A stretch of 32,762 nt of DNA. Origin: a virus. Under the pieces are notes generated by a model, which saw only the letters and a list, made by a program, of their open reading frames with translations, made no database searches and had not been told where the DNA came from. This document shows, piece by piece, positions 5,076-7,958 of the stretch (position 1 is the first letter of the stretch; every line of letters starts with the position of its first letter). Made by a program: the position numbers and the translations under genes. The DNA lies in IMG/VR virus record IMGVR_UViG_3300006128_000031, positions 1 to 32,762 of that record; one strand, given 5' to 3'.

Positions 5076-5104
5076 ATGATAGCACTACTTTTTACACCAT
5101 GCAA
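5076..5104 (-). promoter_or_regulatory. candidate promoter of the leftward recombination operon
   Basis: On the minus strand TTGCAT (5104-5099), a 17-base spacer and TATCAT (5081-5076) lie 24 bases upstream of the nuclease start. The -10 box matches 5 of 6 consensus bases, the -35 only 3 of 6. The -35 overlaps the ATG of the divergent RusA gene. Confidence 0.45.
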
Positions 5105-5458
5105 ACACTATTGTTAAATATTTTTGGTGAGCCATGTTCCAAGGCCAACAGCCGCAAGATTGTGAAGTTCGGCAACCGAATGGCGTCCATCAAATCGGAC
5201 AAGGCACGGGCCTATGCCGAGTCGTTTAAACAACAGTGCAACGTACCGCCCTTGCTGAAGTTCATGGGTGACGATGTCAGGGTGACCATCCGAATCTGGT
5301 ATGCATCGCGGCGTCCCGACTTAGACGAGAGCCTGATACTGGACCTGCTTCAAGATGTTGCTTACGTCAACGACCGTCAGGTTAAGGAGAAGCACATCTA
5401 CTGGATGGGTGTGGACAAAGAGAATCCACGTTGCGAGATTGAAGTTTCTGCGTTATGA
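5099..5458 (+). CDS. rusA: RusA-family Holliday junction resolvase
   Basis: The 119-residue protein starts MQTLLLNIFGEPCSKANSRK. The RusA core RRPDLDESLILDLLQDVAYV then NDRQV (residues 71-95) supplies the conserved acidic residues (D74, D76, D82, D92) that bind metal and cut four-way junctions symmetrically. Length matches the family (about 120). The in-frame start at 5030 is rejected because it would run through the opposite gene's leader. No strong ribosome-binding site precedes 5099. It is divergent from the recombination operon and followed by a GTTTAAAC copy and a terminator. Confidence 0.85.
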   Translation: MQTLLLNIFGEPCSKANSRKIVKFGNRMASIKSDKARAYAESFKQQCNVPPLLKFMGDDVRVTIRIWYASRRPDLDESLILDLLQDVAYVNDRQVKEKHIYWMGVDKENPRCEIEVSAL

Positions 5459-5488: not shown

Positions 5489-5514
5489 GGCTCACTTTGG
5501 TGGGCCTTTTTTTT
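5489..5514 (+). terminator. Rho-independent terminator after rusA
   Basis: GGCTCAC, loop TTTG, GTGGGCC (6 Watson-Crick pairs and one G-U) followed by eight T residues. Confidence 0.8.
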
Positions 5515-5630
5515 GTATACTCAAAGCGTTGGTGGTGCATCGGGTTAGCGCCGATGTATGCGTCATATAAGTTCCTAAATAAGTGAAACACTGCTTCATG
5601 TGAGCCACCAACACCCCTAAAAAAAATTTG

Positions 5631-5657
5631 TTGACATGCTGAAAAGTGTGTTACATT
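5631..5657 (+). promoter_or_regulatory. candidate promoter of the structured RNA
   Basis: TTGACA at 5631-5636, then TACATT at 5652-5657 with a short 15-base spacer, preceded by an A/T-rich tract. A start would fall near 5664, just before the first hairpin of the RNA. The spacer is suboptimal, so the call is tentative. Confidence 0.4.
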
Positions 5658-5659
5658 CC

Positions 5660-5820
5660 CAACCGTCTTGAGTGGCATCAAGGCGTTGACTGTCATTGTG
5701 TATACCCCGCAGAATTTTGTGTGGTCTTGTCGTACGGCAAGCGAGTCTTTTGATGACAGTCAATCGCCTTGCTGTTGCTCTCGCCAAGAGCCAAGACCAC
5801 AGAGAGTTTTGCGGGGTTTT
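5660..5820 (+). ncRNA. candidate structured phage RNA with three-way junction and pseudoknot
   Basis: A non-coding stretch folds by eye into an elaborate structure. P1 is a 25-position helix, 5705-5729 with 5792-5816: CCCCGCA/TGCGGGG at the base, GTGGTCTTG/CAAGACCAC at the top, and a middle that pairs in 8 of 9 positions with G-U pairs. Inside are hairpin P2 (GCAAGCGA 5737-5744 with 5764-5772, one bulge) and hairpin P3 (GCTCT/AGAGC, 5777-5791). The P2 loop (5753-5763) is perfectly complementary over 11 bases to the 5' leader (5686-5696), allowing a pseudoknot. A small hairpin CTTGA/TCAAG is at 5667-5682. Four to five T residues follow P1, so P1 may also act as terminator. No known RNA family was recognised. 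Regulation, packaging or host-directed roles are all possible. Confidence 0.65.
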
Positions 5821-5840
5821 TGCTTTTGGGGGACGAGATG

Positions 5841-5876
5841 GAAAGCTTGAATCCTCTCCCGAGCATTGAAGCTTTC
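5841..5876 (+). other. hairpin in the gap upstream of the HNH-primase operon
   Basis: GAAAGCTT-G-AAT (5841-5852) pairs with ATT-G-AAGCTTTC (5865-5876): 11 of 12 pairs around a 12-base loop, followed by a pyrimidine-rich run. It may be a back-up terminator for the upstream RNA or a leader element. The rest of 5821-6001 holds no gene that can be supported. Confidence 0.5.
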
Positions 5877-5929
5877 TTTCTCTTCCTTCTTTTGGTCTTT
5901 CCTGAATTGACAGGGTGCTTCCCCTAGCT

Positions 5930-6001: not shown

Positions 6002-6030
6002 TTGACATAAGAGTTTTAGAGCTTCAAAAT
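6002..6030 (+). promoter_or_regulatory. candidate promoter of the HNH-primase operon
   Basis: TTGACA (6002-6007), a 17-base spacer and CAAAAT (6025-6030). The predicted start leaves a leader of only about 12 bases containing AAGAGGTG before the ATG at 6049. Confidence 0.6.
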
Positions 6031-6048: not shown

Positions 6049-6270
6049 ATGCGAGACTACAAACACGAGTACCAGCTTCAACTGAAGCGCGGTGATGACA
6101 AGGGACAAATAGAACGGCAACGCGCAAGGCGTATGCTGGACAAGGACGGTGTCGATAGAGCTGGAAAGAACATCGACCACATCAAGCCCATCAAATCAGG
6201 CGGTCTCTCGACCAAGGGCAACCTGAGACTTCGCTCCCCCAAGGCCAACAAGTCCGACAACAAAAAATGA
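6049..6270 (+). CDS. small HNH-like endonuclease domain protein
   Basis: A 73-residue, strongly basic protein. The segment NIDHIKPIKSGGLSTKGNLR (41-60) then SPKANKSDNKK fits a compact HNH fold: D-H at 43-44, and G-N-L and N-K-S-D corresponding to the later N and H/N positions. The N-terminal part is helical and Arg/Lys-rich (QRARRML). It has a good ribosome-binding site (AGAGGTG) and overlaps the primase-helicase start (ATGA). It may nick DNA during replication or packaging. The final HNH ligand is not obvious, so activity is uncertain. Confidence 0.65.
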   Translation: MRDYKHEYQLQLKRGDDKGQIERQRARRMLDKDGVDRAGKNIDHIKPIKSGGLSTKGNLRLRSPKANKSDNKK

Positions 6271-7958
6271 ATGTCGAGGATTTCATTGCATCGCTCAACG
6301 TGGCGGTGCATAAAAGAGTTCCCTGCCCTCTTTGTTCTGACGAGAGGAAAAAAAAGAATGCCAAAGACTTCGACATCCGCAGGACTGACGATGCTTGGCA
6401 ATACTTCTGCCATCACTGCGCCGCCTCTGGCGCTGTTACGTTTAAACAACCCAAGTTTTACCCGGTAAAAAAAATGCAAGTTCAAGCCATCAATCCCCAG
6501 ACATACGACTTCCTCAAAGACCATCACTACGACTACCTAGCCAAGCGCGGTATCACCAAGACAACGGCTGACGTTTACCAGTTGTTCTCCGCCGAGAAGT
6601 ATTTCTCACGCATCGCCAAGAAGACCGACTCGATTGGCTTCCCCTACTACCAAGGCGGCAAGTTGGTTGGGGCCAAGTACCGCTCGATTGAAAGCAAAGA
6701 CTTCACACAAGAGCTTGGCGGCTCGCAGGTTTTCTTCGGCATCGACTTGGTGGACACCGCCCTTCCGGTTGTGATTGTGGAGGGTGAGATTGACGCGCTC
6801 ACGCTCACCGAATGCGGTATCAAAAATGTTTTAAGTGTTCCATCGGGCGCTCCGCTCAAGGTATCGGACGGAAAGATTGACGCAAGCGAGGACAAGAAGT
6901 TCTCCTTCGTCTGGGCGGCCAACGAGGTTTTAAACAAGGTCCCCTACGTGGTCATCGCGGTAGACACCGACTCTGCGGGACAAGCCTTGGCCGAGGAGCT
7001 TGCGAGGCGTATCGGCAAAGACAAATGCCGCATCGCCAAATCGGATTACAAGGACCTGAATGATGCCTTCATGGCGGAGGGTGCTGACAAGGTCAAAGAG
7101 ATTATCGATGCCGCCGAACCATATCCGGTTGCGGGATTAAGTTCAGCCCGTAAGTTTGAAGAACGTTTAAACGACCTATTCAACAAAGGGACCGGCAAGG
7201 GTGAGAGTACTGGGTACGCCAACGTGGATGAGATTTACACCATCGCTCAGGGCCAGCTTTCAATCGTCACCGGATATCCATCCAGCGGTAAGAGTAACTT
7301 TGTGGACCAGTTGATGGTTAACCTTGCCAAGAAGCATGATTGGAAGTTTGCCATTTGCTCTTTTGAAAACGCTCCCGAGATTCACATCTCGCGGTTGATG
7401 GAGATTTATTCCAAGAAGCGGTTCTTTGATGGGGATAACAAAATGACCCCAGAAGAAAAGACGCAAGCATTTAAATGGGTGGAGGAGCACTTCCTGTTTT
7501 TGGATTCGGAAGGTGCTGAGCCCGCATCGATTGATTCGATTATCGAGAGGGCCAAGGTTGCTGTCGCCCGAATCGGGATTCGCGGTCTGGTGGTTGACCC
7601 CTACAACTACATCGACAACAAAGGCAATCAGGCGGAGCACGAGTTCATATCGACCATGCTGACGCGAATACAGGCCTTTTGCAAGGCTTTCGGGGTCCAC
7701 ACATGGTTTGTTGCACACCCATCAAAAATAACGCGCTCTGGCGTTGAATTGCCGCGTCCTGATGGCATGGCTATCAGTGGTTCGATGGCGTGGTGGGCAA
7801 AGGCCGATTGCGGGGTGACCATCCATCGCGGTAAAGGCACAACGGTTGAAGTCGCTGTTTGGAAATGCCGCTATCGGTGGGTTGGTACTCAGGGCGAAAC
7901 GACTCTCGAGTTTGAACGAGGCACAGGGACCTACAAAGAATCGATGGATGACTTCTGA
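6267..7958 (+). CDS. T7 gp4-like bifunctional primase-helicase
   Basis: A 563-residue protein with all domains in order: zinc finger with C20-x2-C23 and C48-x2-C51; TOPRIM primase core with VEGEIDALTL (171-180) and DTDSAG (233-238); and a RecA/DnaB-type hexameric helicase with Walker A GYPSSGKSN (336-344) and Walker B LVVDPYNYI (441-449). It primes the lagging strand and unwinds DNA at the fork. The length matches T7 gp4 (566). It contains two GTTTAAAC copies, and a third abuts its stop codon. No DNA polymerase gene is in the window, so that partner must lie outside or come from the host. Confidence 0.92.
   Translation: MNVEDFIASLNVAVHKRVPCPLCSDERKKKNAKDFDIRRTDDAWQYFCHHCAASGAVTFKQPKFYPVKKMQVQAINPQTYDFLKDHHYDYLAKRGITKTTADVYQLFSAEKYFSRIAKKTDSIGFPYYQGGKLVGAKYRSIESKDFTQELGGSQVFFGIDLVDTALPVVIVEGEIDALTLTECGIKNVLSVPSGAPLKVSDGKIDASEDKKFSFVWAANEVLNKVPYVVIAVDTDSAGQALAEELARRIGKDKCRIAKSDYKDLNDAFMAEGADKVKEIIDAAEPYPVAGLSSARKFEERLNDLFNKGTGKGESTGYANVDEIYTIAQGQLSIVTGYPSSGKSNFVDQLMVNLAKKHDWKFAICSFENAPEIHISRLMEIYSKKRFFDGDNKMTPEEKTQAFKWVEEHFLFLDSEGAEPASIDSIIERAKVAVARIGIRGLVVDPYNYIDNKGNQAEHEFISTMLTRIQAFCKAFGVHTWFVAHPSKITRSGVELPRPDGMAISGSMAWWAKADCGVTIHRGKGTTVEVAVWKCRYRWVGTQGETTLEFERGTGTYKESMDDF

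Follow-up and report, generated by a model that had tools for sequence, protein, structure and literature searches.

A covarying RNA with a leader pseudoknot and a terminator-like helix upstream of DNA-replication genes in freshwater phages

Transcription attenuators are terminator-based leader RNAs, of which riboswitch-controlled terminators are an example. The structured stretch examined here resembles them in its promoter-proximal position, its alternative helices, its intrinsic terminator with a U run and the operon downstream. At the level of sequence, a promoter-like motif upstream and an end resembling an intrinsic terminator are present, and an alternative helix preceding the terminator is predicted. 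Unlike in attenuators, both the junction and the pseudoknot partner lie inside the terminator stem; moreover, no conserved core resembling a ligand pocket was seen, and the sequence is highly variable. The antitermination RNA put of phage HK022 is a folded 5' RNA that heads a phage transcript and affects termination. The likeness to put is one of description, as a folded RNA at a transcript head that would affect termination, but put itself is not a terminator. A further phage RNA, the phi29-type packaging RNA, has a junction and loop pairing, and its shape is conserved above its sequence (PMC12670572).

A folded RNA between the RusA-like and primase-helicase genes

The window, i.e., the whole stretch of DNA analysed, was a virus record of 32,762 bases. 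The structured stretch sits between the gene for a RusA-like Holliday-junction resolvase (5099-5458, + strand; open reading frame listed from 5030) and a gene pair encoding a small HNH-like protein (6049-6270, +; PHROG 4590, E = 2.4e-13, with Pfam HNH below the cut-off) and a primase-helicase (6267-7958, +; PHROG 239, E = 3.2e-91). A terminator-like hairpin followed by T8 lies 3' of the RusA-like gene (5489-5514, +), and a promoter-like sequence, TTGACA-17-CAAAAT, lies directly 5' of the HNH-like gene (6002-6030, +). The open reading frames overlapping the structured stretch were judged by length, and all were small (60 aa on the + strand; 82 and 77 aa on the - strand).

The predicted fold of the + strand begins with a 5' hairpin, P0 (5660-5688). 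The 5' strand of a long helix, P1 (5705-5729), is followed by two inner hairpins, H1 (about 5734-5775), the upper part of which carries the 3' pseudoknot strand, and H2 (5777-5791). The 3' strand of P1 (5792-5816) is directly followed by T5 (5817-5821), and together they (5792-5821) resemble an intrinsic terminator, a layout common to the relatives. P1 is paired at 24 of its 25 positions, and the sole mismatch is G-G (5719/5802). The initial annotation had reported a helix of this size, two internal hairpins, a subsequent T run and an 11-base perfect complement between leader and loop, all of which were found again at the given positions, the last with the palindrome caveat given below. Its proposed comparison of the folding energy with shuffled sequence also came out in its favour: the + strand reached -75.9 kcal/mol, whereas shuffles averaged -48.9 (z = -6.55), and 0 of 200 were as low. 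Furthermore, the stretch had the lowest energy among about 1,630 windows of 170 nt on both strands. We regard the RNA fold as genuine.

The 5' pseudoknot strand TTGACTGTCAT (5686-5696, +) and the 3' pseudoknot strand ATGACAGTCAA (5753-5763, +) are perfectly complementary over 11 nt. The complementarity reaches back to 5679 on the 5' side and on to 5771 on the 3' side, giving 18 pairs and a single bulge between 5679-5696 and 5753-5771. When tested against shuffled leaders, the 11-nt complement alone gave p = 0.003. Each 11-mer contains an odd palindrome (TGACtGTCA and TGACaGTCA); hence, the match in the window, taken alone, could be one palindromic site in two copies. These palindromes, together with the adjoining RusA and primase-helicase genes, would suit a DNA-level element, in which an origin or operator region beside the primase gene has hairpins and repeats that act as DNA. 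The promoter, the terminator end and the strand-specific folding (z = -3.60 for the - strand in the same shuffle test) point instead to RNA, and the pseudoknots of the relatives are non-palindromic, so a DNA-level role was considered very unlikely.

A likeness to packaging RNA or 6S RNA had also been suggested by the initial annotation, and this part of its reading was not supported, whereas the structured RNA, with its junction and pseudoknot, was. Size, junction and pseudoknot, as well as a conservation rich in shape and poor in sequence, would fit a phi29-type packaging RNA or a 6S-like RNA. However, the Rfam scan of the window gave nothing at gathering scores, nor anything near those scores in the structured region. 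The stretch lies among replication genes and not packaging genes, with gene neighbours other than those of the packaging RNA, and it ends in a 3' terminator. The large terminase of the window phage is of the ordinary type (PHROG 38, E = 2.9e-108), and a phi29-type packaging ATPase was not found among the window ORFs searched. Unlike 6S RNA, P1 has a single mismatch and no central open bubble. Either identity was regarded as extremely improbable.

Relatives, covariation and the place of the window

A direct DNA search with the window against the phage collection gave zero matches, and blastn and nhmmer with the window RNA found no relatives among the fetched loci. Relatives were recovered solely through synteny plus a structural descriptor. 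The primase-helicase served as the anchor, and related contigs were obtained from IMG/VR together with two contigs catalogued with lake MAGs of betaproteobacteria; the fetched contigs included 123 unique primase-bearing records. The descriptor, a long helix with a terminal T run and no requirement for a pseudoknot, was applied to 1.4 Mb on both strands. Strong matches were obtained at about 45 loci, on the + strand and nearly all in the slot between RusA and primase. Apart from a few exceptions, the other strong matches were family members, either seen as their reverse complements or located on contigs that gave no RusA match. A pattern scan of all IMG/VR yielded six more copies in the same orientation, located 0.7-2.3 kb from relatives of the same exonuclease gene. 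Some primase-bearing contigs carried neither this RNA nor RF02932, the Betaproteobacteria-1 RNA of Rfam, which occupies the RusA-primase slot in 42 related loci. In six of these contigs (L192, L193, L194, L197, L200 and L204), the slot held another strongly folded stretch with a long helix and inner hairpins and without a U run.

The common architecture of the members comprises promoter hexamers, P0, P1, one or two inner hairpins, the pseudoknot and the U run. In the relatives, the loop of P0 usually carries the 5' pseudoknot strand, and P1 is usually interrupted by a single mismatch or by a small internal loop. The 3' pseudoknot strand, which is in the H1 loop in the window, directly precedes the 3' P1 arm and its U run in most relatives; in L072 and L080, it lies between the hairpins, and its position is therefore variable. 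All 39 non-redundant members carried a leader complement of 6 nt or more, although the corresponding Fisher value (p ~1e-18) is overstated because the members are related.

Covariation was evaluated in an alignment of 20 member sequences (A3) covering the pseudoknot helix and P1. Over both helices, 97.7% of the cells were paired, 15 pairs were double-changed and 72 cells carried double changes; 0 of 500 shuffles had a covariation score as high. In controls with the partners slid, the paired cells dropped to 37-60%. The pseudoknot helix had 94.3% of its cells paired and double changes in 4 of 7 pairs, one of which was seen as AU, CG, GC and UA, and P1 had 98.6% paired and double changes in 11 of 21 pairs. 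The unpaired rows include those of L076 and L170, which are one-column misalignments. The initial annotation had seen a structured RNA, containing a junction and a pseudoknot, upstream of the replication operon, and this stands, the genes being those for RusA, the HNH-like protein and the primase-helicase. Its proposed check for compensatory changes also came out in its favour, as relatives with the same genes carry them in both the long helix and the pseudoknot.

The descriptor scan gave the window a score of 29.0, one of the best in 124 matches, and the window has the slot, the + strand orientation, P1 with the T run, the inner hairpins, the leader complement and the promoter of the family. 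A covariance model built from 20 members (R1) did not list the window among its matches up to E = 1; R1 is based on one sequence-similar subgroup, and other divergent members were also low-scoring or unmatched. The window is thus treated as a divergent family member, assigned by architecture and position and unrecognised by the covariance model. The family, which is absent from Rfam, is apparently undescribed and occurs in dozens of freshwater phages just 5' of DNA-replication genes; a literature search found nothing on this RNA architecture. A strongly covarying RNA family would in this way be added to common freshwater phages, the hosts of which are probably betaproteobacterial.

Promoter, downstream RNA and a candidate transcription gate

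A promoter-like sequence consisting of TTGACA (5631-5636), a 15-nt spacer and TACATT (5652-5657) with a TGN extension lies upstream of the fold (5631-5657, +). A start near 5664 from this sequence would place the 5' end of the RNA at P0. The automatic promoter scan missed it because a 15-nt spacing was disallowed. Most of 44 members carried sigma70-like -35-like and -10-like hexamers 5' of the pseudoknot strand, and the distance from the end of the -10-like hexamer to this strand was 11-17 nt in most members. The mean promoter score of the members was 9.6, whereas that of shuffled sequences was 7.1.

A promoter and a strong terminator are exactly what an independent small RNA needs, which counts against a gate. 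Such an RNA would be stable and about 150-160 nt long, with its own promoter and terminator and with P0, the pseudoknot and P1 sealing its ends, a possibility we rate as somewhat doubtful. Rated no higher is the further proposal that its compact body works in trans, through its shape, on a protein of the host or the phage. The fixed promoter distance, the predicted 5' end at P0 and the strong terminator agree with the small RNA, as do the conserved shape and unconserved sequence, in which no conserved accessible target-pairing stretch was noticed. Moreover, in the window, the stretch is flanked by the RusA terminator on one side and by a promoter-like sequence of its neighbour on the other. 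Against the small RNA stands a second, promoterless structured RNA that starts 2-28 nt past the end of P1 in many relatives; if that RNA is expressed, read-through of P1 is needed. The independent small RNA nonetheless has to be taken seriously as a rival, especially in the window.

The second RNA, called type A, is about 250 nt long and conserved, and it lies just 3' of the P1 RNA in L006, L313, L074, L078, L076, L166, L170, L172, L176, L180, L190, L186 and others. Its + strand consensus contains 39 pairs, of which 13 are double-changed, and has an energy of -30.1 versus -20.1 for the minus strand. No match to type A was found in Rfam. Other conserved blocks seemingly replace type A in L012-like, L068/L171 and L047/L050-like loci. 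No promoter-like sequence preceded type A in 20 of 21 loci; the exception was L199, in which the large RNA is present without an upstream P1 RNA. In the window, a downstream large RNA was not recognisable. The repeated close adjacency of the two RNAs, and the A-rich 5' strands opposite the U run, might also indicate a composite non-coding RNA, with P1 as the 5' domain of the large RNA and the U run as a non-terminating A-U base of P1. P1 and its U run, however, resemble a strong terminator, and both RF02932 and the large RNA of L199 also occur without the P1 RNA, leaving the composite RNA improbable.

Folding was also predicted for nascent RNA stopped just past the 3' pseudoknot strand. The leader helix was predicted in 35 of 44 members, and an 18-pair duplex was predicted for the window. 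The complete RNA favours P1 (-75.6 versus -62.2 kcal/mol in the window). When the folding order, the terminator-like end and the promoterless RNA immediately 3' are considered together, the best single explanation is a cis-acting, promoter-proximal RNA that would control the continuation of transcription, with the leader pseudoknot competing with or clamping the intrinsic terminator. This gate is put forward tentatively, on sequence and modelled folding, at a little less than an even chance. RNA polymerase would start at the 5631-5657 promoter, and the transcript would open with P0. The leader could pair with the inner strand once the latter is made, before the 3' arm of P1 exists. As the 3' arm emerges, P1 would form beside the U run and transcription would end. 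The pseudoknot and P1 pairings share a region and form in sequence; hence, the pseudoknot could hold back, clamp or block the terminator and in this way determine the amount of polymerase going on. In the relatives, polymerase passing the gate would reach the promoterless large RNA and then the replication genes. The intervening genes with a ribosome-binding site are mostly on the + strand, which was counted in favour of the gate.

The two helices with their covariation, the position of the promoter and, in the relatives, the lack of a promoter before the large RNA are shown by the sequences. We infer that the RNA is transcribed, that P1 terminates transcription and that the pseudoknot opposes termination and does not help it, and the same applies to any signal sensed. 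It may be that both pairings, the pseudoknot and P1, are present together; the knot would then stabilise the terminator. A strict geometric exclusion of the two is not claimed, as the short linkers might just permit both. The lack of a recognisable large RNA downstream in the window and the promoter-like sequence of the HNH-like gene were counted against the gate, as was the missing R1 match. With this gene layout, the gate in the window may now end a short RNA. The gate offers a testable model in which terminator formation competes with a pseudoknot, and, if it is right, phages here gate early transcription by RNA shape alone.

RF02932 and other elements of the slot

RF02932 resembles the P1 RNA in its RusA-primase slot and, by inspection, in a pseudoknot-like arrangement. 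It differs in sequence and architecture, is without a terminal helix and U run, and appears to replace the large RNA and not the P1 RNA. Both RNAs stand in tandem in four loci. In L323 and L326, RF02932 comes directly 3' of the P1 RNA, whereas in L081 and L178, about 340-360 nt separate it from the P1 RNA upstream. Alternative use of the two RNAs for one job was dropped because of these tandem copies and because RF02932 occupies the position of the large RNA. Where RF02932 stands alone, a -10-like hexamer mostly lies 0-3 nt from its start, a result that refers to the clustering of positions, as the scores were close to those of shuffled sequences (7.8 versus 7.3). Behind the P1 RNA, its start had no -10-like hexamer in L081 and L178, and inspection by eye showed none in L326 either. 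In the primase tree, the P1-RNA and RF02932 conditions swap at least 8 times. RF02932 was not matched in the window by Rfam or by our own model R2, and the literature search found no paper on it. The placement of this orphan Rfam family in a phage replication locus beside the new RNA gives it a genomic setting. The loci might represent a phage cassette, in which a pseudoknot-gated terminator RNA is combined with a large RNA from unrelated families (type A, RF02932 and others) that is repeatedly exchanged; we regard the cassette as possible rather than probable. If true, phages would have a novel type of RNA system, regulatory or structural, and RF02932 would gain a phage context. In the deposited phage genome L326 (MW202545.1), two overlapping ORFs annotated as 'hypothetical protein' cover the P1 RNA and RF02932 (3428-3885).

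The initial annotation had passed over the promoter, the probable terminator role of P1, the large RNA of the relatives and a further element, RNA0 (5528-5612, +). RNA0 is a second conserved structured element in the window, located between the RusA terminator and the promoter, and it was delineated with covariance model R3. The window scored 92.9 bits and seven other loci (L313, L006, L191, L318, L316, L171 and L170) scored 70-85 bits. These eight matches lie in the corresponding intergenic region and are themselves the sequences used to build R3. RNA0 has a closing stem and two short helices with the loops G.TT.GC and TGC.T.AT, and 7 of its 14 pairs were double-changed. It had no match in Rfam.

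Just behind the P1 RNA, at about 5828-5880, the window reads GGGGGA..GAAAGCTT..TCTCCC..AAGCTTTC, which could form an H-type pseudoknot with the strand order found at the end of RF02932. An RF02932-type model had no match at 5828-5880; hence, this pseudoknot may be due to chance. An 8-bp palindrome, GTTTAAAC, occurs at 28 sites in the 32.7 kb of the window (1535-30432), whereas about 0.5 would be expected by base counting. It recurs roughly once per kb in many relatives and is missing from only 6 of the 128 loci counted, some of which are short.
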